Assembly (NCBI RefSeq): GCF_021049265.1
Contig: NZ_CP088018.1
Location: forward strand, 3,286,001 to 3,350,000
Source: Ruania suaedae
GTDB taxonomy: Bacteria; Actinomycetota; Actinomycetes; Actinomycetales; Beutenbergiaceae
Direction: 5' to 3'
Length of the DNA: 64,000 nt
Made by a program: the position numbers and the translations under genes. Under the pieces are notes generated by a model. It saw only the letters and a list, made by a program, of their open reading frames with translations. It was not told the DNA's origin and made no database searches. Of this stretch, positions 14,707 through 48,059 are shown one piece after another (positions within the stretch are counted from its first letter, which is position 1; each line of letters opens with the position of its first letter).

Positions 14707-14716
14707 GGAGACCCCC

Positions 14717-21632: not shown

Positions 21633-21714
21633 AACGAGAGCGATCACACGAAGCTGCCGGCCCCGGAGTTGTAGGAAACCTCCAACGAACGCTCCCCCAC
21701 CCGGCGCACCCGTG

Positions 21715-21786
21715 CGAATCCACTTCTGTCATAGAAATCCACTTTCGGGCGACCAGAACTGGATTCGGATGACAGAAGTGGATTCG
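21715..21786. repeat. Nested REP-like palindrome, copy 2
   Basis: The outer arms GAATCCACTTCTGTCAT (21716-21732) and ATGACAGAAGTGGATTC (21769-21785) are a perfect 17-bp inverted repeat. Two diverged half-units (AAATCCACTTTC and CAGAACTGGATTC) lie inside. It shares its core and total size with the element at 4048-4121. It lies between the E1 alpha promoter region and the end of the DUF1537 kinase gene. Confidence 0.85.
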
Positions 21787-21821
21787 AACGCAGCGAACTG
21801 CGGGTACAGGCGTGGGACGCG

Positions 21822-23117
21822 TCAGGCCTCGGAGCCGAGGGTGCGGACCTGCTCGAACAGGTCGACCTCCCCCACCTGTCCGCCCTTGAGCAACAGCTCC
21901 AGGCCGTCCACCGCCGGATCCGGCGCATGGGCGCGCAGCAGAACCACGTTCCCGGACGGGTTCGCAGCGATCGAGAGCGACTCCACCCCCAGCAGCGTGG
22001 TCACCCGGCTGGAGGTGTCCCCACCGCACACGACCACCCGCCCGACGCCGGCCCTCACCGCTGCCTCGACCACATCCGCCGCCGCACGCGCCAGGGCGGG
22101 CAGGATCTCGTCCGGCGTGAGCCCGGCGGTGTCGGCGTCGTCGGAGCTCAGCGCCACGCTCCGCCCCGCGGCGAGCGCGGCCAGCGCCTGCTCCCTGACC
22201 CCCGCGGCAAGCACCGGCGCGGTCATCCACCCAGCGCGGGCGGCGGCGTCGATCTGCCTGCGCGTCTGTGCGGAGCGACTGCCCGAGACGGCGAGCACCG
22301 GGCCGCGGGCGGGCGTGGCCGCCGGCACCGGACCGGCATCCCCCGGCTCGGCCGACGCGAGCGCGTGGGAGAGGCCACCGGAGCCGATGGCGAACCCGCC
22401 CAGGTCCAGCACTGCCCGCCCGAGCAGCTGCAGGTGTTCCTCCCCGAGGGCGTCGAGCACCAGGGCGGCCGCGTCGGAGGACCGGATCAGCTGGGTCACC
22501 TGATCCGCTGAGGTGTAGGCCGGGAACGCCAACCCCGCGACAGCCAGGTCGGTCTGGCGCCCCAGGTGCACGGCGAGGTCGGACTCGTCCATCGGCGTCA
22601 CGGGGTGGCTGGACATCGTCGGCTGCCGGTCGAGCCGATACACGGTCTCACCCTCCCGGGCGAAGTGGTGCCCGAAGGCGGTGTAGCGCCCGAAGTCGGG
22701 CTGGGCGAACAGCAGCGGTACGGTCTGATCGCCCCTCAGCGCGCGACCGATCTCCAGCGCCCGGCCCAGGCTCCCCACCTGCGGGGAGGAGTCCGCCGTC
22801 GAGCAGGCCTTGTACTGCAGCACCTGTGGCTCCAGGGCGGCGAGCGCGCTGAGCACCGGGCGGACCTCGGCCTCGAGCCGGCCGGTGGGTATCGACCGGG
22901 CGATCCCGGCGATCCCGACGGCGTCGCAGCCCCTGGCGGCCTCGGCGAGCGCCGCAGGCCCGGGCAGGTGCGTGAACAGCCGCCCGGCCCATCCCTGCCG
23001 GGCCACCTGCAGCAGCACGTCCACGCTGCCGGTGAAGTCGTCGCCGTAGAAGGCCAGCCGGGGCGACGTGCCCTGGCCCCGAGGAGACCGACGCTGGGGT
23101 GGCGGCGCCTCAGACAC
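21822..23117 (-). CDS. DUF1537 (four-carbon acid sugar kinase) family kinase, OiaK-like
   Basis: 431 residues. The N-terminal domain starts with LAFYGDDFTGSVDVLLQ, the substrate-binding signature of DUF1537 kinases. YKACSTADSSPQVGSLGRA is also typical. The C-terminal ATP-binding domain has VVCGGDTSSRV and NPSGNVVLL. These kinases phosphorylate tetronates and, when next to a RuBisCO-like protein, 3-oxo-isoapionate (OiaK). GTG 23117 is chosen because it overlaps the RuBisCO-like gene by eight bases. The in-frame extension to 23189 reads through that gene and lacks family similarity. The substrate is inferred from context. Confidence 0.88.
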   Translation of the reverse strand: MSEAPPPQRRSPRGQGTSPRLAFYGDDFTGSVDVLLQVARQGWAGRLFTHLPGPAALAEAARGCDAVGIAGIARSIPTGRLEAEVRPVLSALAALEPQVLQYKACSTADSSPQVGSLGRALEIGRALRGDQTVPLLFAQPDFGRYTAFGHHFAREGETVYRLDRQPTMSSHPVTPMDESDLAVHLGRQTDLAVAGLAFPAYTSADQVTQLIRSSDAAALVLDALGEEHLQLLGRAVLDLGGFAIGSGGLSHALASAEPGDAGPVPAATPARGPVLAVSGSRSAQTRRQIDAAARAGWMTAPVLAAGVREQALAALAAGRSVALSSDDADTAGLTPDEILPALARAAADVVEAAVRAGVGRVVVCGGDTSSRVTTLLGVESLSIAANPSGNVVLLRAHAPDPAVDGLELLLKGGQVGEVDLFEQVRTLGSEA

Positions 23118-24366
23118 GGACCGGCCCGAAGCGGTCGACCGCCCGTCGCAGGGCTTCGGAGGTGCGGAGGGCATCCTCGACGGTCTCACCCGCGGCGGCG
23201 GATGCCCAGGCCTGGCGCATGCTGTCCACCCCCGCCCGGACGCCGTCGGGGTGGCCGTGGATCCCGCCCCCGGCGAGCACGAGCAGATCGGTGCTGCCCA
23301 CGGCCTCGTGCGTGGCGTGGGCGAGCCCGCCCCACTGCCCGGAGGAGAGCACCGGCACCGTCGGCGTGGTGCCCAGCAACGGCTCCTGGACGGCGGAGAT
23401 CGCCGCGAGCACCTCGGCGTCGGACTCGTAGAACTTGTTGGAGATGCCGTTGGTATGCAGATGGTCGGTCCCGCTCAGCCGCGCCAGCTTCTGCCACGCG
23501 CGGAACGCGATCCCGACCTGCTCGGAGCGGCTGATGGCCCCGAAGCCCGCCCGGTGGCCGTGGATGGGCAGCTGGGAGCGGCGGCGGATGTACTCCAGCC
23601 CGGCCAATCCGACGTTGTTGAGGCAGACCATGATGCAGGTGCCACCGGCCTCGAGCACCATGTCGTGATTGCGTTCGAGCTGGTCGATGTCATCGGTGAT
23701 GTTGAAGGCGTACATCGGCTTCACACCGGTGCGCTCGGCGTGCCGGTTCAGCACCGGCATCACCGCCGCAATCCGTTCGGCCAGCGGGGCGTGCGGGCCG
23801 TTGCCCTGCAGCTCGTCGTCCTTGATGAAGTCGATCCCGCCGTCGGCGAGGTCACCCACCAGCTCGGCGAGCTCGGCGGGGGTGAGGCCGATGCTCGGCT
23901 TGACGATCGTGCCCAGCATCGCCCCCTCGGGGCGCGACATCAGCCGGCGCGTGCCCTCGACGCCGAACTGCGGGCCGGGGTAGCGCTCGGCGAAGGCCGG
24001 CGGCAGGTCGAGATCGACCAGCTTGATCGCGCCGAGTTCCTTGATCTCGAACAGGTTCCCGGCCACCGCGGCCATGAGGTTGGGCAGCGAGGGGCCGAAG
24101 TTGCTCAGCGGGAAGCGGATCCGCAGGCGCGCCCGCCGCCGGTCGGATGGGTCGCCCACCGTGCCGGGCAGGGCCGAGGCCCCGGTCAGTGGCAGCTCCT
24201 CGAGGCCGTCGACCTGGGCGGCGAAACGTGCCCGCACCGAGTCCGACTCCCGCTCCACCCGCACGAAGGTGCCGGTGGACTGCTCCCCGGCGAGCACCTC
24301 GGCCGCACGTTCGAGCGGCATGGAGGTCTCGACGATATAGGTCGCCACCACATAGTCGGCGGCCAT
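23110..24366 (-). CDS. RuBisCO-like protein (type IV), candidate 3-oxo-isoapionate-4-phosphate decarboxylase/hydrolase
   Basis: 418 residues with the two-domain large-subunit fold. GTIVKPSIGL keeps the first catalytic Lys, but the KPK second Lys is Ser. GGIDFIKDDELQG keeps the carbamylated Lys and both acidic metal ligands. HGHRAG keeps the His/Arg pair, LHTNGISNKF the loop-6-like Lys, and SSGQW plus GGGIHGHP the phosphate site. So it is a metal-binding RLP and not a carboxylase. RLPs beside DUF1537 kinases include OiaC and OiaX of D-apionate catabolism. TGATG overlap with the GH127 stop shows coupling. Confidence 0.88.
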   Translation of the reverse strand: MAADYVVATYIVETSMPLERAAEVLAGEQSTGTFVRVERESDSVRARFAAQVDGLEELPLTGASALPGTVGDPSDRRRARLRIRFPLSNFGPSLPNLMAAVAGNLFEIKELGAIKLVDLDLPPAFAERYPGPQFGVEGTRRLMSRPEGAMLGTIVKPSIGLTPAELAELVGDLADGGIDFIKDDELQGNGPHAPLAERIAAVMPVLNRHAERTGVKPMYAFNITDDIDQLERNHDMVLEAGGTCIMVCLNNVGLAGLEYIRRRSQLPIHGHRAGFGAISRSEQVGIAFRAWQKLARLSGTDHLHTNGISNKFYESDAEVLAAISAVQEPLLGTTPTVPVLSSGQWGGLAHATHEAVGSTDLLVLAGGGIHGHPDGVRAGVDSMRQAWASAAAGETVEDALRTSEALRRAVDRFGPVRV

Positions 24367-26351
24367 CACCACACCACCGGCAACCACACGGACATCTCCG
24401 ACGGCCCGCGGTTGCTCCAGGCGTAGTACGGCACCAGCCGCACGCTCGCCCGGCGCAGCGGGGCGTCGTCGACGTCGCCGTACAGGCCCTCGGTCGCCGG
24501 CGGGAGGATGGCGGCCTCGGTCTCCAGCGCCGTCACCTGCTCCGACCCGATCGTCATCTGCACCGGCTGCGGCTGCGCATCGCGCGGCAGTGCGACCTGC
24601 TCCAGCCGGGCGCCGTCGGGAAGCTCGTGGCTCTCCAGGCAGTACACGACCGGTCCGCGCTGCACGGCCACCTGGTTGGTGATCTCCTCGGCGAGGCGGT
24701 GCCCGCGCACGATCCGCACCGGCATCGGCAGGTCCAGGGTGATCTCGTCGCCGGCCTGCCACTCGCGCTCGATGCGGGTGTAGCTGGAAGGTTCGCTCAC
24801 CTCGACCGCGCTCCCGTTGACGGCGACCCGCGCCCCGCGCGACCAGCCGGGGATGCGCAGGTGGACCGGCAGGCTGCCGGCGGCCTCGGTGACGGTGAAG
24901 GTGATCGCGCCGTCCCACGGATACTGCGAGCTCTCCGTCAGCACCACGTGACCGCTCGCGGACTCACCGCGCACCTGCGACCCGCCGTACTGGTGCACGT
25001 ACAGCCCGTCCGGGCCGACCGAGGCGATGCGCTCGTGCATCTCCGACAAGGTCCGGGCGATGTTGGGCGGGCAGCAGAAGCAGCTGAGGTAGGGCTGGCG
25101 CAGCCGCTCGTCCGAAGGCGGCGGCTCCGGCGTGGGGCGCAGGGCGGTGTCCCCGGCGCGGCGCAGCGGGAACGGCAGCTCGCGCACCTGCCGCAGCGGG
25201 TTGGTGTAGAAGTAGCTCGCGCCGTCCAGGCCGATGCTGGCCAGCAGGGCGTTGTAGGAGATGGTCTCGATGACGTCGGCATAGCGCGCCCGCGGGGCCA
25301 GCGCCAGCATCCGCTCGGACCAGAAGATCATGCCGATGTGCGCGCACGACTCGTTGTGCGCCGTCGTGTTCGGCAGCTGGTAGGGCCGGCCATAGGCCTG
25401 GTGGACGCGGCTGATCTCCTTCTGCCAGGGGAAGCCGTCCGGGGAGGCGCCGTCGTAGAGGGCACCGCAGCCACCGGTGAGGTAGAGCTTGGTCTCGACC
25501 ACATCGGTCCAGAGGCGCTCGAGCACCCCCTGCAGGCCGGCGTCGCCGGTCTCGGCGACCAGATCGCTCAGGCCGGCGTAGAGGTAGTTGGCGCGTACGG
25601 CGTGGCCGGTGACGACGGTCTGCTCGCGCACGGGGATGCGGTCCTGGTTGTCGTCGCCGCCCTCCTCGAACTCGTCGCGGACGCGCAGGAACGCCTCGGC
25701 CAGGCGCAGGTAGCGCTCGTTCCCGGTGGCCCGGTACAGGTCGATGACGGCCATGTAGTGGGAGGGGCAGATCGCCGACTTCGCCAGCTCGGTCGGCTTG
25801 TCGGTGGCGAGCATCTCGAGGAAGCCGGCCGCCTTCTCGGCCACGTCGAGCAGGGTCGCCGAACCCGTGACGGCGTGATGGCGCACGGCCACGGTGATGA
25901 GGTGACCGAGGTTGTAGGTCTCGAAGTTGAACCGGTCCGCGAGCGCCTGCACCTGCTCCTGCTTGCGCTCGGCGATCGCCGTCGGGGTGTGCAGGTAGCC
26001 GTCCTCGCGCTGCACCGAGGCGATGAGGGCGGCAAGGTCCTCGATCCGGGCCGCGAGCTCGTCGTCCCAGGCGAGCTCGAGCTGCACGACGGCGGACTCG
26101 AGCCACTTGTAGGTGTCACCGTCCATGAACGGCGGGCCCTGGTGCTCCCCCTCCTCCAGTCCGGCCGCGATGCGGAAGTTGCGCACGCCGGGGCTGACGG
26201 CGGGGTCGCGCAGCATGTCCTCCATGCTGGGCACCGTCACCTCGCGGGTCCGGCGTGCGACATCGGCCCAGAATCCGGAGCGCCAGCGTGCACCCTCGGC
26301 ACCGAGCGGGGTCCAGGGCGCATGGGCGCGGGTCTGGGATGGGGCCGTCAT
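24366..26351 (-). CDS. GH127-family glycoside hydrolase
   Basis: 661 residues, cytoplasmic (no signal peptide). An (alpha/alpha)6 barrel of GH127 (former DUF1680) is followed by beta-sandwich domains. NESCAHIGMIFWSERM contains the Glu/Cys zinc-site residues, and SCFCCPPNIARTLSEMH supplies the catalytic-Cys cluster. Known members are beta-L-arabinofuranosidases and an aceric-acid hydrolase acting on rhamnogalacturonan II. First gene of the leftward GH127, RLP, kinase operon, with AAAGGA before the ATG. Its link to an apionate-type kinase/RLP favours a branched-sugar plant glycan. Confidence 0.9.
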   Translation of the reverse strand: MTAPSQTRAHAPWTPLGAEGARWRSGFWADVARRTREVTVPSMEDMLRDPAVSPGVRNFRIAAGLEEGEHQGPPFMDGDTYKWLESAVVQLELAWDDELAARIEDLAALIASVQREDGYLHTPTAIAERKQEQVQALADRFNFETYNLGHLITVAVRHHAVTGSATLLDVAEKAAGFLEMLATDKPTELAKSAICPSHYMAVIDLYRATGNERYLRLAEAFLRVRDEFEEGGDDNQDRIPVREQTVVTGHAVRANYLYAGLSDLVAETGDAGLQGVLERLWTDVVETKLYLTGGCGALYDGASPDGFPWQKEISRVHQAYGRPYQLPNTTAHNESCAHIGMIFWSERMLALAPRARYADVIETISYNALLASIGLDGASYFYTNPLRQVRELPFPLRRAGDTALRPTPEPPPSDERLRQPYLSCFCCPPNIARTLSEMHERIASVGPDGLYVHQYGGSQVRGESASGHVVLTESSQYPWDGAITFTVTEAAGSLPVHLRIPGWSRGARVAVNGSAVEVSEPSSYTRIEREWQAGDEITLDLPMPVRIVRGHRLAEEITNQVAVQRGPVVYCLESHELPDGARLEQVALPRDAQPQPVQMTIGSEQVTALETEAAILPPATEGLYGDVDDAPLRRASVRLVPYYAWSNRGPSEMSVWLPVVW

Positions 26352-26394
26352 TGGCTGTCCTTTCGCGTCTTCACTGGTGGCGACTCTGGCGACA

Positions 26395-26444
26395 TGCTAA
26401 CCTGAGACTGCAACTTCTCGCAATCGTGAATCCTTATGCATGGT
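26395..26444. promoter_or_regulatory. Divergent promoter/operator region between the GH127 operon and the racemase-fold gene
   Basis: On the minus strand, TTGCGA (26418-26423) and TTAGCA (26395-26400) are spaced by exactly 17 bp and precede the GH127 ATG by a short leader. Just upstream of that -35 lies ATGCATGGT (26436-26444). The same nonamer sits next to the candidate -35 of the sugar-binding-protein gene at 40496. This suggests one regulator controls both operons. Confidence 0.5.
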
Positions 26445-26493
26445 AAAACGGTTGCTCTGGCTTTCCCGCCGTCTCAAAGGAGAAGATCGGACC

Positions 26494-27162
26494 ATGACCT
26501 CCACCACCCCCGCCACGCGCGTCGCGTTCCTGCACACCGGCGCCGTCGTCATCCCGCCCGTCATGGAACTGGTCGGCGAGCAGCTGCCCGGCCTGAGCAC
26601 AGTCAACTACCTCGATGACCGGATCGTGGCCGACCTCGCCGATCCGGCGCACCAGGAGTCGGTGGCCGAGCGCCTGGCCGATCTGGCCGCGGCCGCGAAG
26701 TCCGCCGGCGCCGACGTGGTGATGTTCACCTGCTCCTCGATCTCCCACCTGGCCGCTCCGACGGCGGAGAAGGCCGGGATCCCGGTGCTGCGCATCGACG
26801 AGGCGATGGCCGACGAGGCCGTGGCCGCGGCTGGACGGGTCACGGTGCTGGCCACCCTCCCGACGACGCTCGAGCCCACCCTGGGGCTGCTGCGCGAGCG
26901 CGCCGAGCTGGCCGGCACCACACCGGAGTTCGTCAGCGAGGTGGTCCCGGGGGCGTTCGAGGCCGTCGCGGGCGGGGACCGCGCCGCGCATGACCGGCTC
27001 GTGGCCGAGGCGATCGAGCGGCACGCACCGACCAGCGACGTCGTGGTGCTCGCGCAGGCGTCGATGGCCTCAGCCGCCGAGGCGGCTCGGGTCGAGGTGC
27101 CGGTGATGACGAGCCTGCGGCCGGGCATCGCCCGCCTCGCCGAGCGCGTGCAGGCCGGCTGA
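26494..27162 (+). CDS. Asp/Glu-racemase-fold protein with a single active-site Cys
   Basis: 222 residues of the aspartate/glutamate racemase superfamily. The N-terminal half has MFTCSSISHLAAP (Cys near residue 79), the first catalytic Cys. The second half has VVVLAQASMAS, where the second catalytic Cys would be; it is Ala-Gln-Ala here. With one Cys lost, two-base racemisation is unlikely, so decarboxylation, isomerisation or a lyase step is more plausible. It is divergent from the GH127/RLP operon and runs into the GH-A and GH95 genes. The ATG follows CAAAGGAGAA. Its role in acid-sugar breakdown is inferred. Confidence 0.8.
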   Translation: MTSTTPATRVAFLHTGAVVIPPVMELVGEQLPGLSTVNYLDDRIVADLADPAHQESVAERLADLAAAAKSAGADVVMFTCSSISHLAAPTAEKAGIPVLRIDEAMADEAVAAAGRVTVLATLPTTLEPTLGLLRERAELAGTTPEFVSEVVPGAFEAVAGGDRAAHDRLVAEAIERHAPTSDVVVLAQASMASAAEAARVEVPVMTSLRPGIARLAERVQAG

Positions 27163-27182
27163 GGTCACCTTCGACCACTACC

Positions 27183-27221
27183 GGTGTGGATCCGGTGCAT
27201 GAGGTGCACCGGAATCACACC
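27183..27221. repeat. 39-bp palindrome, copy 1 (left flank of GH-A/GH95 pair)
   Basis: GGTGTGGATCCGGTGCA (27183-27199), a 5-bp centre, then TGCACCGGAATCACACC (27205-27221). The arms pair with two mismatches. The same 39-bp design occurs at 31842-31880. It lies 34 bp before the GH-A start, where it could act as an operator or fold in the leader RNA. Confidence 0.82.
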
Positions 27222-27254
27222 ACAAGCCGCTGTTCCTCACGTTCGGAGCTGAGC

Positions 27255-29417
27255 ATGAGCGAGATCCCCGTCGTCCCCTACGTCATCGACCACCACCGGC
27301 GCGAACCGTCCGCCGCCGACCTGTCCTTCCTGCTGGACGCCCCGGCGGGCCGGGACGGCTTCGTCCGCGTCCAGGACGGTCATCTCGTCCGGCCCGACGG
27401 GCAGCGTCTGCGCATCTGGGGGGTGAACCTCACCGGCTGGACCAGCGGCTCCACACTGCTGCCGCCCAAGGAGGAGGCGCCGCTCTGGGCCGGCACGCTG
27501 GCCCGGTTCGGCATCAACTGCGTGCGCTTCCACTTCCTCGACCTGCCCGTCTGCGACCCCGCCGACCGCCGGCCGAGCGGACTGATCGACCCCGGGCCCG
27601 ATCACACCCAGTCCTTCGACCCCGACCAGCTCGACCGGCTCGACTTCTTCGTCGCCGAGCTCAAGCAGCGCGGCATCTACACCAATCTCAACCTCAACGT
27701 CGGCCGCACCTACAAGCCTGGTGACGAGGTCCCCGACGGTGAGGCGGTGCGGATCTGGAAGGGCATGACGTTCGTCGGCGAACGCCTGATCGAGCTCCAG
27801 AAGAACTACGCACGCGATCTGCTCACCCACCACAACCCCTACACCGGCACCGAGTACCGCCACGAGCCGGCCGTCGCGATCGTGGAGATCGTCAACGAGA
27901 ACTCCCTCTACGAGTTCTGGATGCGCAACTGGCTGCGCGGTGAGCGCACCCCCGGCAGCCCGGACATCCAGCTCGACTTCCCGCCCTACTACGCCGAACG
28001 CCTCGACGGGCTGTACCAGGCGTGGCTGGCCGAGCACCGCACCGAGGCCGAGATCGTCGAGCTGCGCGCGCTCGCCGGTGTCGGTGAGGACGAGCCGGTC
28101 CCGCGGCTGCGCGCCGAGCAGTTCGCCGAGGCGCCCACCCCGCTGTTCCACGCCGAGGGAGAGTTCTACGGCGCCGTCGAGCGCGGCTTCTTCCTGGACG
28201 TCAAGCGCTACCTCACCGACGACCTCGGGGTGGAGTCGCTGATCGTCGGCTGCGCCGATCACACCTACTGGATCCCGAACCAGCCGATCGTGCAGAGCAC
28301 CTCCCAGCTCGACATCGTCGACGGCCACGTCTACTGGCAGCACCCGGCGATCTGGGGTGCACGCAACACCCCGATGGTGGAGGACCCGCTCAACTCCACC
28401 ATCGTCAAGCTCAGCCGCTCCCCGGTGGCTGGGAAGCCGTTCACGGTGAGCGAGGTCAACCACCCGAATCCGAACGAGCACGCGGCCGAGATGATCCCGA
28501 TCCTCGCCGCCTACGCCGCGTTCCAGGACTGGGACGGCATCTTCTTCTACACCTTCGAACCGAAGCTGCAGGGGCAGCACAGCGGGACCGTCGCCGACCA
28601 CTTCGATCTCACGCTGGACCCGGTGAAGATGCCCCAGCTGGCCGCGGGCGCGCTGATCTTCTCCCGCCCGGACGTCCGGCCCGCTCGCGAGACCCTCACC
28701 CGCTCCTACTCCACCGAGCAGGTGCTGGAGAGCATCCGGCTGCCCGAATCCGCCCGGCCGTACTTCACGCCCGGCTTCCCCGTCTCGACGGCGCTGCGTC
28801 ACGGGGTGCGCATCTCCTCCTTCGACGGCGCCCCCACGGCCGCCTTCGACCCGGACCAGCCCGGGCCCTATCTCGCCGACACCGGTGAGCTCGGCTGGTA
28901 CGCCGACGACCGTGGCGGCTTGGTGACGATCGACACCGACCGCACCCAGGCTCTCGTCGGGCACGTGCGCGCCCACGGGCGCAGCACCTCCCACCTGAGC
29001 GCCGAGGTCGCCAACGACTTCTGCGCCCTGACGCTGAGCTCGCTCGACGGCGAGCCGATCCCGCGCAGCGAGACCCTGCTGCTCACCGCCGGCGCGCGCA
29101 TCGAGAACACCGGCACCCGGTGGAACGCCCGCCGCACCCTGTGGGAGACCTGGGGTGAGGCGCCCACGCTCATCGAGCCGGTCACCGGCTGGCTGGTGCT
29201 GACCGACCTGCAGGGCGTCATCGACATCCAGATCACCCCACTGGACGGCTCCGACCGCCCGATCGGCGACCCGCTGCACGGCCGGCGGCTGGAGATCGGC
29301 TGGGAGATCCCCCTCGGCGATCCCCCGACGACGCAGTACCTCCTCCATCTGGTCCGCTCGGCCGAGCAGGCCACCCGCCTCGCCGAGGGCGGCCGACGCT
29401 CGGAGTTCTTCGGCTGA
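27255..29417 (+). CDS. Clan GH-A (GH5-like) glycoside hydrolase, family unassigned
   Basis: 720 residues, no signal peptide. The first 500 residues form a (beta/alpha)8 barrel: [11 protein letters not shown], then [14 protein letters not shown], then [12 protein letters not shown] (Asn-Glu acid/base), then [14 protein letters not shown] (nucleophile Glu) and [11 protein letters not shown]. The remaining third is beta-rich. The pattern is that of retaining clan GH-A enzymes similar to GH5, but I cannot place it in a numbered family. ATG 27255 is chosen for GGAG six bases before; an upstream in-frame ATG lies inside the palindrome. Cytoplasmic location implies action on imported oligosaccharides. 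Confidence 0.8.
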
Positions 29418-29454
29418 GCCACCTGTCCGCACCCAGGAGAAAGCTGACCCCACC

Positions 29455-31848
29455 GTGAGCACCGCCCCGGCCGACGACGGCCTGACCCTCTGGTACACCC
29501 AGCCCGCCCGCACCTGGCAGGAGTCCTCGCTGCTGGGCAACGGCCACCTCGGAGCAGCCCTGTGGGGAGGGATCGAGCGGGAGGTGATCGACCTCAACGA
29601 GGACACCCTCTGGACCGGCGAACCCGGCTACGAGCCCAACCCGGCGGCACCGACCGCCCTGCCCGAGGTCCGCCGGTTGCTGCTGGCGGGCAAGTACGCC
29701 GAGGCCCAGGAGCTCGCGGCGGACTCCCTCGGCGGCATCGGCGGGACCGCCCTCTACATGCCGCTCGGGCAGCTCGTCCTCGACCTCCCCGCCGGTGAGG
29801 TCAGCGGCTATCGCCGCGAGCTCGACCTGACCACGGCGACGGCGCAGGTCACCTTCCGCTCCGACGGAGTCACCTACCGCCGGGAGACCTTCGTCTCCCA
29901 CCCCGACCGCGCCCTGGTGGTGCGCCTGAGCGCGGATCGGCCCGGCGCGATCTCGTTCACCGCCTCGCTGACGAGCCTGGTGCGGCACCAGACCACCGCC
30001 GACGGCGAGAGTCTGCGGATGGCCGGGCGGGCGCCGATGCGGGCCTTCGACTACTCCGGGCGCACGCGCGAGCCCGAGTACGACGAGGAGCCCGATCCCC
30101 GGGGGATGCGGTGGGAGGCCCGCCTCGCAGCGGTCGCCGAGGGCGGCAGCGCGACGATCAGCGAGAAAGGCGACGCCGTCCTCTCCGAGGGGTGCGACGC
30201 CGTCACCCTGATCCTCACCGCACGCACCAGCTACAACGGTCCGGCGGTCAGCCCCAGCCGGGACGGCCAGGACGAGAAGGCGCTGGCCGAAGCAGACCTA
30301 CGGGCCGCCGTCGGGAAGGGGTACGAGGCGCTGCGCACCGCGCACGTGGCCGACCACCAGGAGCTGTTCAGGCGGGTAAGCCTGGACCTGGGCCGCAGCG
30401 ACGCCGACGCGCTGCCGACCGACGAGCGCGTGGCGGCCTACGTCGCCGGGAGCGCGAACGACCCGGGCCTGGCGGCGCTGTACTTCCAGTTCGGGCGGTA
30501 CATCCTCATCGCCACGAGCCGGCCGGGCAGCCAGCCGGCGAACCTGCAGGGGGTCTGGAACCCCTCGATCAACCCGGCGTGGGGGTCGAACTGGACGATC
30601 AACTGCAACGCCCAGATGAACTACTGGCCGGCCGAGGCCGCGAACCTGGCCGAGTGCCACGAGCCGCTGCTGGAGCTGACGCGCGAACTGAGTGAGAACG
30701 GGGCGCGGGTGGCGCGCGACCACTACTCCGCCCGGGGCTGGGTCTCGCACCAGGGCACCGACCTCTGGCGCTACGCGCAGCCGGTGGGCAGCAACCCGCA
30801 GTGGTCGAACTTCGTGGCCAGCAACGCCTGGCTGAGCCAGCACCTCTGGGAGCACTATGCCTTCTCCGGCGATCTCGAGGACCTGCGCCGGGCGTGGCCG
30901 ACGATCCGTGATGCCGCGAGCTTCCACCTGGACATGCTGGTCGAGGAACCGGAGCATGGCTGGCTGGTGACCGCCCCGGACATCAACTTCGAGAACATCT
31001 GGGTGGCACCGGATGGCACCACGGGCTCGCTGGCAATGGGCACCACGCCGACGATGCAGATGGTGCGCGAGCTGTTCACGCATGTGCTCGCTGCCTCGCG
31101 ACTGCTCGGCGAGGCAGGCGAGCTGGCCGCGGAGATCGAGGCGGCGCTGCCACGGCTGGCGCCGATGCAGATCAGCCCCGCCACCGGGCAGCTGCAGGAA
31201 TACCTGGAGGACTGGGGGCGGACGATGAAGGCGGAGGTGCTCTCCAGCTGGGGCGCGGTGGCCAGCGCGCAGATCCACCCGCGGCGCACGCCGGAGCTGG
31301 CGGCGGGCCTGCGGCGGATCTTCGACACCGAGCGCTGGTGGGAGGAGAAGAAGGACCCGCTGAAGGGCCCGTGCCTGGGGAGCTGGGAGGGCGGCTTCCA
31401 GGCGATGGCCTACGCCCGGCTCGGTGACGGCGATGCGGCGCTGCGGGTGTTCGACCTGCATCTGCAGAAGGCGGTCCAGCCCAACCTCGGCTCGAAGTTC
31501 ATCGGGCACTCCCCGACGAACCCGATGTTCCAGATCGACGGCAACCTCGGCCAGACCAGTGCCGTGAACGAGATGCTGCTGCAGAGCCACGTGCACGACG
31601 GCGTGTACGAGCTCGACCTGCTGCCGGCACTACCGGGCCAGTGGGCCGACGGCGAGGTGCGCGGACTGCGCGGGCGCGGCGGGTTCGAGGTGGACCTGCG
31701 CTGGCGTGGCGGGGCGCTCGAGTCCGCGACTATCCGGGCGGTCACCGGCACGACCACGCGGGTCCGCTACCGCGAGCGCACGCTGGACGTGACCCTGGCC
31801 CCCGGCGAGCAGATCCGTCTCAGCCAGGACCTGGCGCTTGTGGTGTGA
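29455..31848 (+). CDS. GH95-family alpha-L-fucosidase/alpha-L-galactosidase
   Basis: 797 residues, full GH95 length. The N-terminal beta-domain starts [14 protein letters not shown] and has [12 protein letters not shown]. The (alpha/alpha)6 catalytic domain has [18 protein letters not shown], supplying the Asn pair that activates water. [10 protein letters not shown] holds the proposed general-acid Glu, and [12 protein letters not shown] a conserved Asp. GH95 is an inverting family that removes terminal L-fucose or, in rhamnogalacturonan II, L-galactose. No signal peptide, so it is intracellular. GTG start, 37 bp after the GH-A gene. Its stop codon lies inside the second 39-bp palindrome. Confidence 0.93.
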
Positions 31849-31883
31849 TTCCGGTGCACCTGGTGCATCGGAATCACACCACA
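31839..31883. repeat. 39-bp palindrome, copy 2, spanning the GH95 stop codon
   Basis: The core is GGTGTGATTCCGGTGCA (31842-31858), a CCTGG centre, and TGCATCGGAATCACACC (31864-31880). Flanking TGT/ACA extend the symmetry to 45 bp. One mismatch in the core arms. The GH95 TGA is at 31846-31848, within the left arm. It lies between convergent genes and could be a terminator for both, but it is homologous to the leader element at 27183. Confidence 0.82.
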
Positions 31884-31893
31884 GTCCGTCGCG

Positions 31894-33147
31894 TCAGTGC
31901 TCCCAGAGTGTGGCGAGCGGCAGCGCCCAGAGCCGGCCACCGAAGGGAACGGCACGAGTCCCCGTGTACAGGACCACCCCGGCGACGAACCGCTGACCCA
32001 CCTTGTCGCGGAGAAGCTCCAGACCACGGAAGTCACCCGCGCCGACCGTCGCCGCAGACTTCACCTCGACCCCGACCACCTCGCGGCGACGATCCTCAAG
32101 CACGATGTCGACCTCACGACCGTGGTTGTCGCGGTAGTGGGACAGTGAGTAGGACTTCTGCGACCACGCGCGTTGCTTCACGAGTTCTCCGACCACGAAG
32201 CCCTCGACGAATCCACCAGTGAGCGTCGACGACACCTCGCGCTCGAGACCCTCGACGTCGACTCCGGCGAGATGGGCCGCAAGGCCGGTGTCGCTCAGAT
32301 ACACCTTCGGGGCCCGCACCGCACGAGCTGCCCTGTTGTTCGACCAGCCCGGGACGACGCGGATCAGGTAGACGGACTGCATCGCCCGGAGGTAGGCGGG
32401 AACGGAACGCTCCGGTATGTCGACCTCTCGCGCGACTCTCGCTGCGACGAACTCGCTGCCATTGCGTGCAGCCAGAACATCGAGCAGCGGGCCGAGGCGA
32501 TCCACGTATGAGATCCCGGAGACATCGGTGGTGTCCTTCGAGAGCACGCGATCGGCGTAGTTTTCCATCCATCGGCCGCGGGCACGGGCGGGCGCCTCGC
32601 GTAGTTCCGGGAATGAGGGGGCAGTCGCAATCTCCAGGTAGTCGCGCCGAGTGTACGCAGGGCGATCCGCAGGCACCTCGGTCGGCAATCTCCAGGCGTA
32701 CGCTGCGAAGTCCTCGACCCGCCCTGCCACCTCACCCCGGCTGAGGCCCTCGAGCGGAATGGTCTGCGCGCGTCCCGCCAACGATTCCTGCGCGCCCCGC
32801 AGCGACAGCAGGTCGGCTGAACCCGTCACGATGAAGCGGCCTGGTCGCCGATCCTGGTCGACTGCTGCCTTCAACGAGGTGAGCAGCGCGGGGACACGCT
32901 GGATCTCGTCGATGGCGAGCAAACCGTCCGGATACTGCATCGCGAACCCATCAGGATCGCGCTCAGCGGCGGCGCGATCGACGGCGAGATCCAGGTTGAT
33001 CGTGCGCGCGTTGCGGCCCGAGATGAGTTGTTGCATCAGGGTGCTCTTGCCTACCTGGCGGGCGCCACTGATCACCGTGACCGGCGTGTCCGCGAGGGTC
33101 TCCGCCACGAGATCGCTCGCGTTTCGACGGATGAGATCGGGCGTCAT
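31894..33147 (-). CDS. AAA-type ATPase with DUF4143 domain
   Basis: 417 residues. The N-terminal AAA_14 ATPase domain has Walker A ISGARQVGKST and Walker B LLAIDEIQRV, with TGSADLLSLRG after them. A winged-helix middle section (VDIPERSVPAYLRAM) leads to the C-terminal DUF4143 PD-(D/E)XK-like region with GFVEGFVVGELVKQ and EVDIVLEDRRREVVGVEVKS. Such proteins are widespread and poorly understood; nuclease or defence roles have been suggested. It interrupts the glycan locus and has lower G+C in places, suggesting independent acquisition. Start ATG 33147; a longer frame reads through a repeat array. Confidence 0.88.
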   Translation of the reverse strand: MTPDLIRRNASDLVAETLADTPVTVISGARQVGKSTLMQQLISGRNARTINLDLAVDRAAAERDPDGFAMQYPDGLLAIDEIQRVPALLTSLKAAVDQDRRPGRFIVTGSADLLSLRGAQESLAGRAQTIPLEGLSRGEVAGRVEDFAAYAWRLPTEVPADRPAYTRRDYLEIATAPSFPELREAPARARGRWMENYADRVLSKDTTDVSGISYVDRLGPLLDVLAARNGSEFVAARVAREVDIPERSVPAYLRAMQSVYLIRVVPGWSNNRAARAVRAPKVYLSDTGLAAHLAGVDVEGLEREVSSTLTGGFVEGFVVGELVKQRAWSQKSYSLSHYRDNHGREVDIVLEDRRREVVGVEVKSAATVGAGDFRGLELLRDKVGQRFVAGVVLYTGTRAVPFGGRLWALPLATLWEH

Positions 33148-33171
33148 AGGTCCCAGGCTAGACCTCGTTCT

Positions 33172-33248
33172 GCGGATTCGCCAGGCTAACGTTGCGGATC
33201 CGCCGGGCTTTTGTTGCGGATTCGCCACCCTCCCGTTGCGGATCTGCC
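33172..33248. repeat. Four-unit array with exact 22-bp period upstream of the DUF4143 ATPase
   Basis: GCGGAT(T/C)(C/T)GCC occurs at 33172, 33194, 33216 and 33238, always 22 bp apart (two helical turns), with differing spacers. The 33194 copy contains the perfect palindrome GCGGATCCGC. The array sits 25-100 bp upstream of the ATPase start, ideal for cooperative binding of a repressor along one DNA face. It resembles iterons but no replication gene is present. Confidence 0.85.
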
Positions 33249-33277
33249 GCGCCCCGCTCTCGCCGGGCGGGCCACGC

Positions 33278-35860
33278 TCAGGCCACCACCCGCCGGTGCT
33301 GTCCGTGCCCGAGGATCTCCGGCTCCGCGCCCGGCAGCTCCAGCACACCCTCGGTCCCCACCGGCACGGTCACCTCGACCGTCAGCTCACCGCCGGCGAG
33401 CTCCCATCGGATCGCGGCCTCGCCGTACGGCGTCAGGTGCCGCGCCGAGGCGTGGGTCAACCCGCCGCCGGGCCGCGGGGCGAACCGGATCCGGCGATAC
33501 CCGGGCTCCGCGGGCGCCAGCCCCGCCACCACCCGGTGCAGCCAGTCGGCCACCGCGCCGAGCGCGTAGTGGTTGAAGGAGGTCATCTTGCCCGGGTTCA
33601 CGGTGCCATCGGGCAGCATCGAGTCCCACCGCTCCCACACCGTGGTCGCGCCCTGCTCCACCTGATACAGCCAGCTGGGGCACTCGCGCTCCTGCAACAG
33701 CCCGTAGGCGGTCTCCAGCTCCCCGGCCGAGGTCAGCGCATCGGTCACCAGCGGCGTGCCGACGAACCCGGTCGCGATCCGGTGCCCGGCCTCACGCACC
33801 AGCTCGGCCAGCCGCCGTCCGGCAACCTCCCGCTGGGCGGGGGTGAGCAGGTCGAACTCCAGCCCGAGCGCGTAAGCGGTGACGGCGTCGCTGGTCATCC
33901 GTCCGTCGGGCAGCACGTAGGCGGCACGGAAGGCCTCGGCGACGGCGTCCGCGAGCGCCCGGTAGCGCGCCGCGTCCTCCGTCTTGCCCAACCGCTCGGC
34001 CGTCTGGGCCATCAACCGCGAGGACCGCGCGAAGTACGCGGTCGCCACCAGGTACCGGTCGGTGCGCGCATCGGCCGGGTCGTCCGGCGGTGCCGCCGGA
34101 TCGAGCCAGTCGCCGAGCTGGAAGCCCTCGTCCCACAGGTGGTCGTCCCCGGCGAGCCGGTCCACCAGATCCACCCACCGGGTCGCGCTGCCGTACTGGG
34201 TCTCGAGCACCCCGGCGTCACCGAAGCGCTGATACAAGGTCCACGGCAGCATGGTCGCCACATCACCCCAGGCGGCGCCAGGGCGGATCGGGGTCCACAT
34301 CCGGTGCGCCGGGATCACCGGCACGTACCAGGGCACGGTGCCATCGGGCAGCTGATCGGCCTCGACGTCGCGCAGCCAGCCGGCAAGCATCCCGGAGACG
34401 TCGAACAGGAACGAGGCGGTCGGCCCGAACACCTGGATATCCCCGGTCCACCCGGCACGCTCGTCCCGCTGCGGGCAGTCGGTGGGCACGTCGACGAAGT
34501 TGGAGCGCATCCCCCAGACGATGTTCTCGTGCAGCTTGCTCACCAGCTCGTCGGAGCACGCGAACCAGCCGGTGCGCTCGACGTCGGTGTGCAGCACCCG
34601 GGCCGCCAAAGCGCCGGCGGCCACATCGGCATCGAGATCGCCCGGCCAGCCGTCCACCTCCACGTACCGGAACCCGTGGAAGGTGAACCGCGGCTCCCAC
34701 TCCTCCGTCTCGCGCCCGGCCAGGGTGTAGTGATCGGTGGAGCGCGCCGAACGCAGCGGCCGGGTGTACAGCTCCCCCTCCTGCAGCACCTCGGCGGTGC
34801 GCAGCCGCACTGTGGTCCCCGCCGGACCGCTCACCCGGAGGCGCACGCGGCCGGCGAGGTTCTGACCGAAGTCGAGGATGCGGTTCCCGGCCGGCGAGGT
34901 GAGCACCTCAACCGGCCGGACTTCTTCGGTGCATCGGACCGGCGGCGCCGTCGGGGCCACCAGCGTGGCGGGGTCGCGGTAGCGCACGGCCACCTGCTCC
35001 CAGGCGCCGTCGTCGAACCCGGGAGCGGACCAGCCGGCCTGCTCCAGCCGGGCGTCGTAGTCCTCGCCGTCGTAGATGCCCGAGCGCAGGATCGGACTCG
35101 GCGCGGTGCGCCAACTGCGGTCGGTGGCGATGGTCTCGGTGCGCCCGTCGGTGTAGGTCACCTCGAGCTGGCCGAGGAAGGACAGATCCTCACCGAAGAC
35201 GTTCCGGAACCCCTCGTACCAGCCGATCCGCCCGCGGTACCAGCCGTCCGCCAGCCAGGCCCCGACGGCGTTGCCTCCCGGGCGTAGCAGCTCGGTGACG
35301 TCGTAGGTGTAGTACCGCAGCCGGGTGGTGTAGGAGGTCCAGCCCGGGGCAAGGGTGTCGGTGCCCACGCGGGTGCCGTTGATCTCGGCCTCGTAGAGCC
35401 CGTGGGCGCTGGCGTAGAGCCGGGCACTGGCGATCTCGCCGTCGAGGTCGAACTCCCGGCGCACCAGCGAGGGGCGGCGGGAGTCGGAGTCGCGGTGCTC
35501 GAGCGAGCGAGCCCCGACGGGCCGGGCCCGCCAGTCCTGTGGCGTGAGCAATCCCGCCTCGAGCGTGCTGGGCTCGGAGGGCTCCGACCAGGTGCCGTCC
35601 TCACCGCACACCTGCACCCGGACGGTGGCGCTCTCCCGGGATGTCAGCGGTTCCCCCGGCCACGGCACCAGGATCTGCTCGGCGGAGGCGACCTCGGTGA
35701 CCTGCTCGGCCCCGCCGCGCTCGATCAGCAGGCGGTAGGCGCGCTGCTGCCACCCCGGGTCCGCATGCCGCAGCGTCCACGAGAGGCGCGGCCGCGCCTC
35801 GCCGATGCCCAGCGGCTGGCGGTGATGCTCGATCATGGGGGCGTCGGCGATGACGCTCAT
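33278..35860 (-). CDS. GH78 alpha-L-rhamnosidase
   Basis: 860 residues, no signal peptide. Beta-sandwich domains come first (about 1-390, with the Bac_rhamnosid_N type YEAEINGTRVGTD). The (alpha/alpha)6 catalytic domain follows, with PTDCPQRDERAGWTGD carrying the acid Glu and TTVWERWDSM carrying the base Glu. A C-terminal beta domain closes the protein. It hydrolyses terminal alpha-L-rhamnose from plant glycosides or pectic fragments. ATG 35860 is preceded by AAAGGTGG; the longer frame to 35983 reads into the promoter. It is divergent from the apiosidase-like gene and shares a LacI-type operator region. Confidence 0.95.
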   Translation of the reverse strand: MSVIADAPMIEHHRQPLGIGEARPRLSWTLRHADPGWQQRAYRLLIERGGAEQVTEVASAEQILVPWPGEPLTSRESATVRVQVCGEDGTWSEPSEPSTLEAGLLTPQDWRARPVGARSLEHRDSDSRRPSLVRREFDLDGEIASARLYASAHGLYEAEINGTRVGTDTLAPGWTSYTTRLRYYTYDVTELLRPGGNAVGAWLADGWYRGRIGWYEGFRNVFGEDLSFLGQLEVTYTDGRTETIATDRSWRTAPSPILRSGIYDGEDYDARLEQAGWSAPGFDDGAWEQVAVRYRDPATLVAPTAPPVRCTEEVRPVEVLTSPAGNRILDFGQNLAGRVRLRVSGPAGTTVRLRTAEVLQEGELYTRPLRSARSTDHYTLAGRETEEWEPRFTFHGFRYVEVDGWPGDLDADVAAGALAARVLHTDVERTGWFACSDELVSKLHENIVWGMRSNFVDVPTDCPQRDERAGWTGDIQVFGPTASFLFDVSGMLAGWLRDVEADQLPDGTVPWYVPVIPAHRMWTPIRPGAAWGDVATMLPWTLYQRFGDAGVLETQYGSATRWVDLVDRLAGDDHLWDEGFQLGDWLDPAAPPDDPADARTDRYLVATAYFARSSRLMAQTAERLGKTEDAARYRALADAVAEAFRAAYVLPDGRMTSDAVTAYALGLEFDLLTPAQREVAGRRLAELVREAGHRIATGFVGTPLVTDALTSAGELETAYGLLQERECPSWLYQVEQGATTVWERWDSMLPDGTVNPGKMTSFNHYALGAVADWLHRVVAGLAPAEPGYRRIRFAPRPGGGLTHASARHLTPYGEAAIRWELAGGELTVEVTVPVGTEGVLELPGAEPEILGHGQHRRVVA

Positions 35861-35878
35861 AGGAACCACCTTTGCTTC

Positions 35879-35945
35879 GAAACGTTTCAGTCCTACTGTA
35901 GTTGACGCTAGATTGGTGGTGAAACGATGTACTGCACGTTTCACC
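35879..35945. promoter_or_regulatory. LacI-type operators in the divergent GH78 / apiosidase-like promoter region
   Basis: GAAACGTTTC (35879-35888) is a perfect palindrome of the LacI-family type. A second inverted pair, GGTGAAACG (35918-35926) and CGTTTCACC (35937-35945), repeats the same half-site with a 10-bp gap. A plus-strand -35-like TTGACG (35902-35907) with GATGTA 18 bp later overlaps the second site, which fits repression. The LacI regulator at 63043 is a candidate binder. Confidence 0.65.
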
Positions 35946-36000
35946 CACCGATCGAGGCCAGGATCCGTCCCGCACCGGGACACCGACGAGGAGGTCGCTG

Positions 36001-37518
36001 ATGGCGCAGCGGACAGCGCACGTGCACGAGCCCTACGAGATCGAGCTCACCGGGCCCCGGACCCCGATCCGGGCCGATCAGGTCCCGCTCCGGGCCGAGT
36101 TCACGCACGAGTCCGGCCAGGCCATGACCGTGCTGGGCTTCTGGGACGGCGAGCGCCGCTACCTCGCCCGCCTCGCTCCCCCGCTCGCGGGAACCTGGAC
36201 ATGGCGCACCACCAGCGCCGCACCCGAGCTGGACGCCCGGACCGGCGAGTTCACCGCCGAACCGGCGCCTTCCACCGGCACCCACGGGATCGTCCGCGTC
36301 GCCGAGCGCTTCCACTTCGCGCACGCCGACGGCACCCCGTTCCGCCCGGTCGGAGCCACGGTCTACAACTGGATCCACCAGGACGAGGAGCTGCGCAGCC
36401 AGACGGTGGACTCCCTCTCCGAGGCGGGCCTGAACAAGCTCCGGTTCATGGTCTTCCCGCAGGCCGGTGGCTACGTCGAGCACTTTCCCGAGCTGATGCC
36501 GTTCGAGAAGACCGCGGACGGCTGGGACGTGGGCCGCCCGGTGATCGAGTTCTTCCGCCGCCTGGACTCCCTCGTCGCCGACCTCGGCGCCCACGGCATC
36601 GAGGCCGACGTGCTCATCTTCGACGCCTACGACCGCGGCGTGTTCGGCCTCAACGACCTCACCGAGGACCAGGACGCCGCCTACCTGCGCTACCTGGTGG
36701 CCCGGCTCGGCGCCTACCCCAACGTGTGGTGGTCGCTGTGCAACGAGTTCGACCAGATGACCGACCGTCCCACCGAGCGCTGGACGCGCGCCGGTGAGCT
36801 GCTCGCCGAGATCGACGCCCACGAGCACCTGCGCTCGATCCACAACTGGGTCGAGCTCTACGACTACAACCAGCCCTGGGTCACCCACGCCTCCATCCAG
36901 AACGGGTTCGCCACCGAGACGTTCGGCCGCGCGAGCCTGTACCGCGACGTCTACCGCAAGCCGGTCGTGCTGGACGAGATCAAGTACGAGGGCGACACCG
37001 AACGCTGGGGACGCCTGAGCGCCGAGGAACTGGTGGACCGGTTCTGGATCACCACCAGCTCGGGCTGCTACGCCTCCCACGGGGAGAGCTTCGTCACCGA
37101 GTCCGCCAGCCTGCACATCGTCGAGGGCGGCCGGCTGCGCGGGCGGAGCCCGGCCCGGCTGGGCTTCCTGCGGCAGGTGCTCGATGGGCTGAAGGTCCCC
37201 GGCCTGGACCCGATCGACAAGTGGGACGACCCGGCCTGCGTGGTGGGCAGGCCCCGCGAGCAGTACCTGGTCTACCTCGGCCGCGAGGCTCCCGCCGAGT
37301 GGACGTTCCGTCTCCCGCAGGGCCACGACGGCGACCGGCTCGAGGTCGGCGACGCCTTCGAGATCCAGATCATCGACACCTGGAACATGACCATCGCGAC
37401 CGCCCCCGAGCAGTTCGTGCTCACCGACGTCCAGCGCAACGACGCCTACGCCACCGGCAACAACCCGCTGGCCCTCCCCGCGGGCGAGGCCATCGCGCTG
37501 CTGATCACCCGCGCATGA
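36001..37518 (+). CDS. Apiosidase-like DUF5060/DUF4038/DUF5605 glycoside hydrolase
   Basis: 505 residues, no signal peptide. The N-terminal beta-sandwich (about 1-95; FTHESGQAMTVLGFWDG) is DUF5060. The middle barrel (about 105-400) has FRPVGATVYNWIHQ, then LNKLRFMVFPQ, and WSLCNEFDQMTDRP, a likely acid/base Glu; PVVLDEIKYEGD holds a candidate nucleophile Glu. The C-terminal beta domain (about 415-505) is DUF5605. The DUF4038 group includes GH140 apiosidases. It starts an operon with the beta-galactosidase (ATGA overlap), after GAGGAGG. Apiose specificity is a family-based inference. Confidence 0.82.
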   Translation: MAQRTAHVHEPYEIELTGPRTPIRADQVPLRAEFTHESGQAMTVLGFWDGERRYLARLAPPLAGTWTWRTTSAAPELDARTGEFTAEPAPSTGTHGIVRVAERFHFAHADGTPFRPVGATVYNWIHQDEELRSQTVDSLSEAGLNKLRFMVFPQAGGYVEHFPELMPFEKTADGWDVGRPVIEFFRRLDSLVADLGAHGIEADVLIFDAYDRGVFGLNDLTEDQDAAYLRYLVARLGAYPNVWWSLCNEFDQMTDRPTERWTRAGELLAEIDAHEHLRSIHNWVELYDYNQPWVTHASIQNGFATETFGRASLYRDVYRKPVVLDEIKYEGDTERWGRLSAEELVDRFWITTSSGCYASHGESFVTESASLHIVEGGRLRGRSPARLGFLRQVLDGLKVPGLDPIDKWDDPACVVGRPREQYLVYLGREAPAEWTFRLPQGHDGDRLEVGDAFEIQIIDTWNMTIATAPEQFVLTDVQRNDAYATGNNPLALPAGEAIALLITRA

Positions 37519-41947: not shown

Positions 41948-41953
41948 CGCGAG

Positions 41954-41987
41954 CTCGCCGGCCCCGCCCCCGGGTGGGGCCGGCGAG
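41954..41987 (+). terminator. Strong hairpin after the binding-protein gene
   Basis: CTCGCCGGCCCC (41954-41965) and GGGGCCGGCGAG (41976-41987) form a perfect 12-bp G+C stem with a 10-nt loop, 6 bp after the stop codon. There is no T-tract, so it is more likely an RNA-stabilising or partial-termination hairpin that keeps the binding protein more abundant than the permeases. Confidence 0.75.
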
Positions 41988-42009
41988 GTCTGCACGAAAG
42001 GATCACGCG

Positions 42010-42891: not shown

Positions 42892-42892
42892 G

Positions 42893-48012: not shown

Positions 48013-48059
48013 ATAGCGGCCCCGTTCGGGGTGAGCTGGTACTGACAAGGGAGTGAGTG

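Follow-up and report, generated by a model that had tools for sequence, protein, structure and literature searches.

A GH127, RuBisCO-like protein and DUF1537 kinase operon of Ruania suaedae as a candidate catabolic module for L-aceric acid of rhamnogalacturonan II

In a 64,000-nucleotide stretch of the Ruania suaedae genome (contig NZ_CP088018.1, here C1, positions 3,286,001 to 3,350,000; called the window below, with coordinates counted from its first letter unless prefixed), three overlapping minus-strand genes form one operon for a GH127 glycosidase, a RuBisCO-like protein (RLP) and a DUF1537 acid-sugar kinase, divergent from the gene of a single-cysteine protein of the Asp/Glu-racemase fold that we call RAC. 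On balance we lean, modestly, towards reading the operon and RAC as a catabolic module for the L-aceric acid (3-C-carboxy-5-deoxy-L-xylose) of rhamnogalacturonan II (RG-II). The operon structure, the family identities and the co-occurrence of the four genes are observed. The GH127 gene (24366-26351, minus strand, 661 amino acids, PF07944 at 316 bits) comes first in the operon, and from the start-codon context a TGATG joins its stop to the ATG of the RLP gene (23110-24366, minus strand, 418 amino acids, RuBisCO_large at 222 bits). The most likely start of the kinase gene (21822-23117, minus strand, 431 amino acids, PF07005/PF17042) is the GTG at 23117, which overlaps the RLP stop (GTGTCTGA). 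Gene layout and start-codon context place a divergent promoter region at 26352-26493, on the other side of which RAC (26494-27162, plus strand, 222 amino acids) has its best start at 26494, preceded by GGAGAAG. These coordinates and overlaps bear out the translationally coupled operon with divergent neighbours that a preliminary description of this DNA had proposed. Pfam and NCBIfam were scanned with the longest open frames, which give the RLP, the kinase, RAC and a neighbouring 720-amino-acid protein extra N-terminal residues. In the whole genome, a single contig of 3.56 Mb, the RLP is the sole match to PF00016.

The glycosidase points towards RG-II. Its top match in the PDB is 5mqo, at 600 bits against 362 for the second, in an alignment that covers residues 5-659 in two stretches and keeps the motifs HNESCA (of the form HNE-S/T-CA) and SCFCCPPN. 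We take 5mqo to be BT1003 of Bacteroides thetaiotaomicron and the two motifs (E-x-C and C-C) to be catalytic. Two sources name BT1003 the aceric acid hydrolase that acts when RG-II is broken down (PMC5698469, PMC10850190). It is the nearest solved homologue of the window enzyme and shares its motifs; the window GH127 differs in falling below the curated cut-off of the aceric acid hydrolase model NF049879 (756 bits, cut-off 950) and in its TGATG coupling to an enzyme proposed to break down the sugar that it would release. Other RG-II-type genes, namely GH28, pectinesterase, sialidase-like, rhamnosidase and apiosidase-like genes, are found in the window or in relatives' loci, and with BT1003 as the nearest solved relative of the GH127 the link to RG-II made in the preliminary description holds.

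The RLP and the kinase have OiaX and OiaK as their best NCBIfam matches, in agreement with the pair type assigned to them earlier, at 420 and 256 bits against cut-offs of 700 for both. OiaK is the best of three DUF1537 kinase models, the 3-oxo-tetronate kinase model giving 127 bits, and an ApnO-associated RLP of Halomonas likewise stays under the OiaX cut-off, at 480 bits. The methionine-salvage enzyme MtnW (2,3-diketo-5-methylthiopentyl-1-phosphate enolase), also an RLP and named earlier as the grouping that would speak against the apionate link, was rejected, as the window RLP scores 195 and 159 bits on its two models, under cut-offs of 409 and 513.6. K156, K182, D184, E185, H304 and K311 are invariant across seven aligned RLPs, and by RuBisCO numbering we take these to include the carbamylated lysine with its Asp and Glu, a second lysine and the loop-6 lysine. 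Known RLPs, according to PMC6302742, decarboxylate 3-oxo-isoapionate 4-phosphate or transcarboxylate and hydrolyse it. The OiaK/OiaX branch of the D-apionate pathway resembles the window pair in the adjacency of RLP and DUF1537 kinase and in the proposed phosphorylation and then decarboxylation of a beta-keto, alpha-hydroxy acid. It differs in that the feeder of the window pair would be a racemase-fold protein where the branch uses ApnO, in that the window pair scores below the curated cut-offs, and in that the ApnO-linked RLPs and the window RLP fall on opposite sides of the RLP tree.

We infer that aceric acid is the substrate and RAC the isomerase. Aceric acid is the only RG-II sugar known to carry its carboxylate on a tertiary carbinol, and its isomerised form, HOCH2-CO-C(OH)(COOH)-CH(OH)CH3, carries CH(OH)CH3 where 3-oxo-isoapionate, HOCH2-CO-C(OH)(COOH)-CH2OH, has CH2OH. 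Because the HOCH2-CO-C(OH)(COOH)- half is identical, an OiaK-like kinase and an OiaX-like RLP would suit isomerised aceric acid without new chemistry. In the proposed pathway the GH127 would, judging by its similarity to BT1003, free aceric acid inside the cell, and RAC would shift the C2 proton to C1, converting the aldose to 3-C-carboxy-5-deoxy-pent-2-ulose, a beta-keto, alpha-hydroxy acid. The kinase, as a putative ketose 1-kinase, would then phosphorylate the C1 hydroxyl, and the RLP, as a putative 3-C-carboxy-2-ketose 1-phosphate decarboxylase, would use RuBisCO-type enediol(ate) chemistry to yield a 5-deoxypentulose 1-phosphate, which a class II aldolase encoded elsewhere may cleave to dihydroxyacetone phosphate and acetaldehyde. 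The genome has three matches to PF00596 (class II aldolase), none of them at the operon. A last intermediate of the same kind, 5-deoxyribulose 1-phosphate, meets an aldolase in 5-deoxyribose salvage as described in PMC6302742. That salvage ends in dihydroxyacetone phosphate and acetaldehyde; it differs from the proposed route in that the substrate here would be of plant polysaccharide origin rather than a by-product of nucleosides, and the operon is without a dedicated aldolase. Among the open-access records listed, no title or start of abstract dealt with the bacterial fate of released aceric acid.

RAC is proposed as the isomerase because the C2-to-C1 proton shift is the missing step and RLP-kinase loci of this type have RAC as their one further conserved enzyme. 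It passes PF01177 (Asp/Glu racemase superfamily) at 62.8 bits against a cut-off of 31, with no nucleotide-binding domain by Pfam, and both C80 and Q188 are present in 50 of 50 aligned members of its family. Q188 presumably occupies the place of the second racemase cysteine, and a classical two-cysteine (two-base, cofactor-free) racemase is ruled out by this glutamine. As a hypothesis from the residues present, a single cysteine would suit a one-base proton shift on one face; the stronger claim that one cysteine proves an isomerase was discarded, the motif being common to rhizobial relatives in amino-acid-like loci. Of 14 loci read around RAC relatives, six have a LacD-type aldolase directly alongside (two of these aldolases were scanned), which would be the place of a sugar isomerase, and two RAC-relative loci (L131, L138) hold a 3-oxo-tetronate-type kinase. 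The R. suaedae genome itself has a RAC paralogue (40%; C1:1691110-1692695, L127:5111-6696) directly after a LacD/tagatose-bisphosphate-type aldolase, and this pair recurs in five other genomes of the order, in one of them (L138) with the 3-oxo-tetronate-type kinase nearby. A tblastn search of plasmids with the window RAC gave no match, which is likely a false negative because a RAC from a Rufibacter plasmid matches the window RAC at 140 bits by blastp and its own search gives 162 records.

Co-occurrence was examined in 297 genomes of the order. The RLP is present at E <= 1e-60 in 14 of these, with 62-100% identity in 13 and 47% in the remaining one (G005). A GH127 above 600 bits on the aceric model occurs in 13 (616-762 bits, the next being 477), whereas any GH127 at E <= 1e-100 occurs in 65; RAC occurs at 56-100% identity (>= 210 bits) in 13, with the next at 129 bits, whereas any RAC relative at E <= 1e-15 occurs in 36. 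The GH127, RLP and RAC sets of 13 consist of identical genomes. In 12 of them GH127 and RLP are near each other on a single contig; the thirteenth (G013) has them on two different contigs, and its RLP sits at the start of one. The arrangement of the genes varies by genus, either GH127-RLP-kinase with a divergent RAC or RLP-kinase-GH127-RAC, and a reshuffled order with the set kept is the pattern expected if selection holds the gene set together. Recurrence of the set, reordered, in many genera argues against chance; the 13 module genomes are related and are not to be counted as 13 independent events.

Genome contigs of 84,980 species were also scanned and the best 80 of 436 confirmed RLP relatives kept, a selection that favours loci close to that of the window and skews the proportions of the classes accordingly. 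Adding the window itself, two plasmid loci and 13 loci from the order gives 96 RLP rows; eight of these have cut-off flanks and were excluded, leaving a tally of 88 loci (87 plus the window). For unannotated loci we predicted genes with a simple purpose-made codon model, not a standard gene finder, and neighbour clusters were named from one or two scanned members each: c8, with PF16896 and a Rossmann domain, was taken as ApnO; c16 is a zinc-type alcohol dehydrogenase (ADH), c28 ApnL (921 bits, cut-off 750), c40 a class II aldolase and c26 an MFS acid-sugar-type transporter. Exactly one candidate feeder stands within eight genes of the RLP at 81 of the 88 loci (RAC only at 47, ApnO only at 22, ADH only at 12); two loci have both RAC and ApnO, and five have no feeder. 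The locus set includes duplicate records (L019/L031, L027/L069, L022/L063), and two duplicate RAC records are counted in the tally. Among the five feeder-free loci, L025 has RAC by a separate RAC search, L111 has RAC elsewhere on its plasmid and L060 has a kinase that the gene caller missed; L079 and L093 remain feeder-free. The kinase was called in 82 of 87 loci.

A quick RLP tree, with no outgroup and several long branches, was labelled by RAC and GH127 within eight genes of the RLP, ApnO and the GH127-like cluster c34 within four, and ADH within three. Its window side has 53 rows, mostly with RAC and GH127, the Kribbella and Streptomyces rows having ADH and c34 instead; in none of the 53, some of them short-flanked, does ApnO lie within four genes of the RLP. 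The ApnO loci fall among the 42 rows of the opposite side, eight of which have RAC. Fourteen internal RLP positions (V6 to L362) separate the RLPs with RAC and GH127 (41 rows) from those with ApnO (24 rows); they include A100/T, I159/V, G188/A, D225/G, T305/V and L348/Q, and some adjoin active-site motifs. The protein of c34 is distantly GH127-like (Pfam below cut-off; L060:8146-9858) and adjoins or lies near the RLP in pectin loci of Kribbella, Streptomyces and Paenibacillus. One record, L053, labelled Planococcus sp. APC 4015 (Firmicutes), has an RLP 77% identical to that of the window and groups with Microbacterium rows, and is probably mislabelled or contaminated.

Pectin loci in Bacteroidota, Bacillota and Verrucomicrobiota again contain the RAC-RLP-kinase set. 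On a plasmid of Rufibacter tibetensis (Bacteroidota) RLP-kinase-RAC adjoins pectinesterase, GH28 and sialidase-like genes, and elsewhere the plasmid carries GH140 and a GH127 that is the top match to the window GH127 (43%) among 72,556 plasmids. A Croceibacterium plasmid (Pseudomonadota) has GH127-RLP-kinase, with RAC and an MFS gene some 31 kb away, past the point where the circular sequence starts, and its RAC is the top match to the Rufibacter RAC after that protein itself. Paenibacillus L078 and Verrucomicrobia L084 have RAC, RLP and kinase with GH95 and GH78 or GH2, and Leucobacter has a minimal set of MFS acid-sugar-type transporter, RLP, kinase and RAC. In a phylum sample of 396 genomes an RLP match was found in eight (the neighbourhoods of G476 and G528 were left out): one has RLP-kinase-RAC (G326), two have RLP-kinase-ApnO (G391, G465) and G005 has ADH, while no module partner was matched on the 5.4-kb contig of the G670 RLP.

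Several results weigh against assigning the module to aceric acid. None of the three operon proteins reaches its curated cut-off (950 for the GH127, 700 for the RLP and the kinase), and the specificities of GH127 enzymes vary widely according to PMC5698469. Among the control genomes, Bacteroides ihuae and Thermotoga maritima both have matches to the aceric model, above the cut-off in one case, and neither has a RuBisCO-family match; in family f34 of the phylum sample seven genomes have a GH127 of 510-558 bits, and only G391 has an RLP, of the ApnO kind. An aceric-type hydrolase can thus do without the module, since control and f34 genomes hold a similar GH127 without this RLP. The Croceibacterium GH127 has just 87 bits on the aceric model, and L071 has RLP, RAC and a GH127-family gene and no kinase that we could find. 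Eight of the 13 module genomes carry ApnO, and the loci L097 and L065 (ApnO seven genes away in the latter) contain both RAC and ApnO. If the limit is narrowed to four genes, the RAC-only class shrinks to 27 of 87 loci, a drop that arises because the Microbacterium importer stands between RAC and GH127. Independent pairs on the tree, labelled with the distance limits given above for it, are few and yield no significant result: 3.2 for, 0 against and 3.8 tied of 7 for RAC against absence of ApnO (median p 0.25), and 1.9 for and 0.2 against for RAC with a GH127-like gene (median p 0.5). Finally, rhizobial relatives of RAC in amino-acid-like loci carry the same one-cysteine motif and occur without an RLP, and for this reason the isomerase role is treated as a hypothesis.

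The preliminary description had proposed a link of the operon to apiose and apionate. On this reading the RLP and kinase are the OiaX and OiaK of a D-apiose/D-apionate route, joined to glycosidases that would free apiose, and RAC would be an accessory. We now consider this unlikely. In its favour, OiaX and OiaK are the best NCBIfam matches, RG-II contains apiose, the apiosidase-like gene is nearby, ApnO- and ApnL-like genes lie close outside the window, and PMC11747546 has strain LCG007, with a cluster of ApnL, ApsD, ApnO, OiaK and OiaX, growing on apiose. The scores on both models are nevertheless far under 700, the window GH127 is outside the apiosidase families and of the aceric-acid-hydrolase type, and the partner gene is RAC rather than the NAD-dependent ApnO, which is within four genes of the RLP in none of the 53 window-side rows (in L065 it is at seven). 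The lactonase and oxidoisomerase of the known apiose route had been described as not seen; ApnL-like, ApnO-like and PF01261 (xylose-isomerase-like) proteins with a divergent GntR-like regulator are encoded at C1:3350369-3354629, the ApnL- and ApnO-like genes 0.4-3 kb past the right end of the window. This ApnO-family gene is about 42 kb from the RLP in a separate operon, and the ApnL-like protein reaches 188 bits against a cut-off of 750. A search for ApnO, ApnL and class II aldolase across all 13 module genomes plus a control genome led us to demote apionate as the sole substrate: the ApnO-family match PF16896 is absent from five of the 13 and present in eight, and in the five of those eight whose ApnO loci were read, each ApnO adjoins a gene of 248-273 amino acids (PF01261 in the four scanned, G031 being the fifth) and no RLP was matched. 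OiaC, listed earlier among RLP clades, is a xylose-isomerase-like decarboxylase and not an RLP. The PF01261 protein of the window's neighbouring ApnO operon had no OiaC match in the NCBIfam scan and no PDB match, so that calling it OiaC-like rests on operon position and fold family. In G097 the ApnO and PF01261 genes come after RpiB-like and triose-phosphate-isomerase-like genes. An RLP-free route via L-erythrulose is known in the apiose literature, and the ApnO/PF01261 operon fits it.

Since eight of the 13 module genomes have ApnO, the RLP may still have a double role that includes apionate breakdown. One RLP and kinase would then serve both apionate, through the distant ApnO, and aceric acid, through RAC, and the shared reactive half of the two substrates and the single PF00016 match of the genome are consistent with such an arrangement. 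The ApnO operon, however, has its own candidate decarboxylase in the PF01261 protein, and the RpiB-like and triose-phosphate-isomerase-like genes of G097 fit the RLP-free route, which makes a shared outlet quite unlikely in our view. A module for some other branched or acidic sugar, from pectin or a plant secondary metabolite, in which the GH127 acts as a beta-L-arabinofuranosidase-like enzyme, would accommodate the unreached cut-offs, the diverse substrates of GH127 members and the existence of an ADH-fed RLP-kinase pathway, but it is improbable given BT1003 as the nearest solved homologue, the RG-II-type gene company and the position of the aceric acid carboxylate, which is not known from any other RG-II sugar.

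Beyond the aceric acid assignment, the loci suggest a more general and more tentative idea, to which we give slightly less than an even chance: the RLP and DUF1537 kinase would be a cassette that can be moved between pathways to decarboxylate branched beta-keto sugar acids, with at least three interchangeable feeders, namely ApnO for apionate, RAC for aceric acid and a zinc-type ADH for a third acid. The feeding of apionate into an RLP-kinase pair by ApnO is the known part of this reading. ADH-fed RLP-DUF1537 pairs occur in L070 (8204-14023), L072, L080, L085, L061 and L112, joined by a class II aldolase in the four Bacilli loci L070, L072, L080 and L085, and are possibly a third pathway. A plasmid of the haloarchaeon Haloterrigena salifodinae (L143) has RLP, DUF1537 kinase, a PGDH_C (ApnO-like) protein and a TRAP transporter together.

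Around the conserved core the window continues as a glycan-degrading region. Downstream of RAC are the gene of the 720-amino-acid protein (27255-29417, plus strand) and a GH95 glycosidase gene (29455-31848, plus strand; PF22124 at 423 bits and GH95 matches in the PDB), both outside the core. The earlier designation of the former as a clan GH-A glycosidase is plausible and weakly founded: no Pfam or NCBIfam family was matched, and the PDB gave only weak GH5 matches (E 0.004 and 0.008). The 720-amino-acid gene is not beside RAC in the relative L017. No shared operator was found in 11 chosen intergenic stretches of the window, and the only strong match in that search is a hairpin repeat flanking this gene and the GH95 gene (27183-27229, 31839-31883), whose core has four matches in the genome, three here and a distant one with two mismatches. 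Because both genes are absent at the same position in L017 and hairpin repeats flank them, the pair may be a movable unit. Further on are an alpha-L-rhamnosidase (33278-35860, minus strand, start from the codon model; PF17389 at 419 bits, scanned as 33278-35983), the apiosidase-like protein (36001-37518, plus strand; PF13204 at 59 bits), a GH2 beta-galactosidase-type enzyme (37515-40469, plus strand, start by the codon model; PF02836 at 289 bits, scanned from 37221) and an oligosaccharide-type ABC importer with a binding protein and two permeases (40589-43798, plus strand; PF01547, PF00528). The apiosidase-like gene is nearby as had been described, at about 4 kb from the end of the GH95 gene and 9.6 kb from the GH127 gene. 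A related ABC importer adjoins the module in many Microbacterium loci.

Some other features of the window were recorded. An imperfect 34-nucleotide inverted repeat (85%) with a 12-nucleotide loop lies directly downstream of the kinase gene (21711-21790), and a 38-nucleotide unit is repeated three times with 22-nucleotide spacing at 33171-33252, in the 5' part of an AAA_14/DUF4143 ATPase open frame (31894-33348) and probably upstream of the true ATPase start. A second sugar cluster (47021-55805) holds an IclR regulator, an ABC importer, an enolase-superfamily dehydratase, an SMP-30 lactonase, a DHDPS-family aldolase and a short-chain dehydrogenase, and is likely a non-phosphorylating sugar acid route. 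The genes at 13990-15328, for a WXG100-like protein and then a protein with a GH-E/HNH nuclease domain, resemble a secreted polymorphic toxin pair.

Taken as a whole, these results most likely move the pathway assignment of this operon from apionate to aceric acid and give a concrete four-enzyme prediction for the use of aceric acid after its release from RG-II. If true, this would be the first catabolic route for aceric acid and would add a new reaction to both the RuBisCO and the Asp/Glu-racemase superfamilies, with a new substrate for the former and a predicted isomerase in the racemase fold. Loci of both types are annotated alike, as 'four-carbon acid sugar kinase' and 'ribulose-bisphosphate carboxylase large subunit family', and an RLP-DUF1537 pair need not mean apiose catabolism; RAC near such a pair would serve as a marker that separates aceric-type from apionate-type loci.

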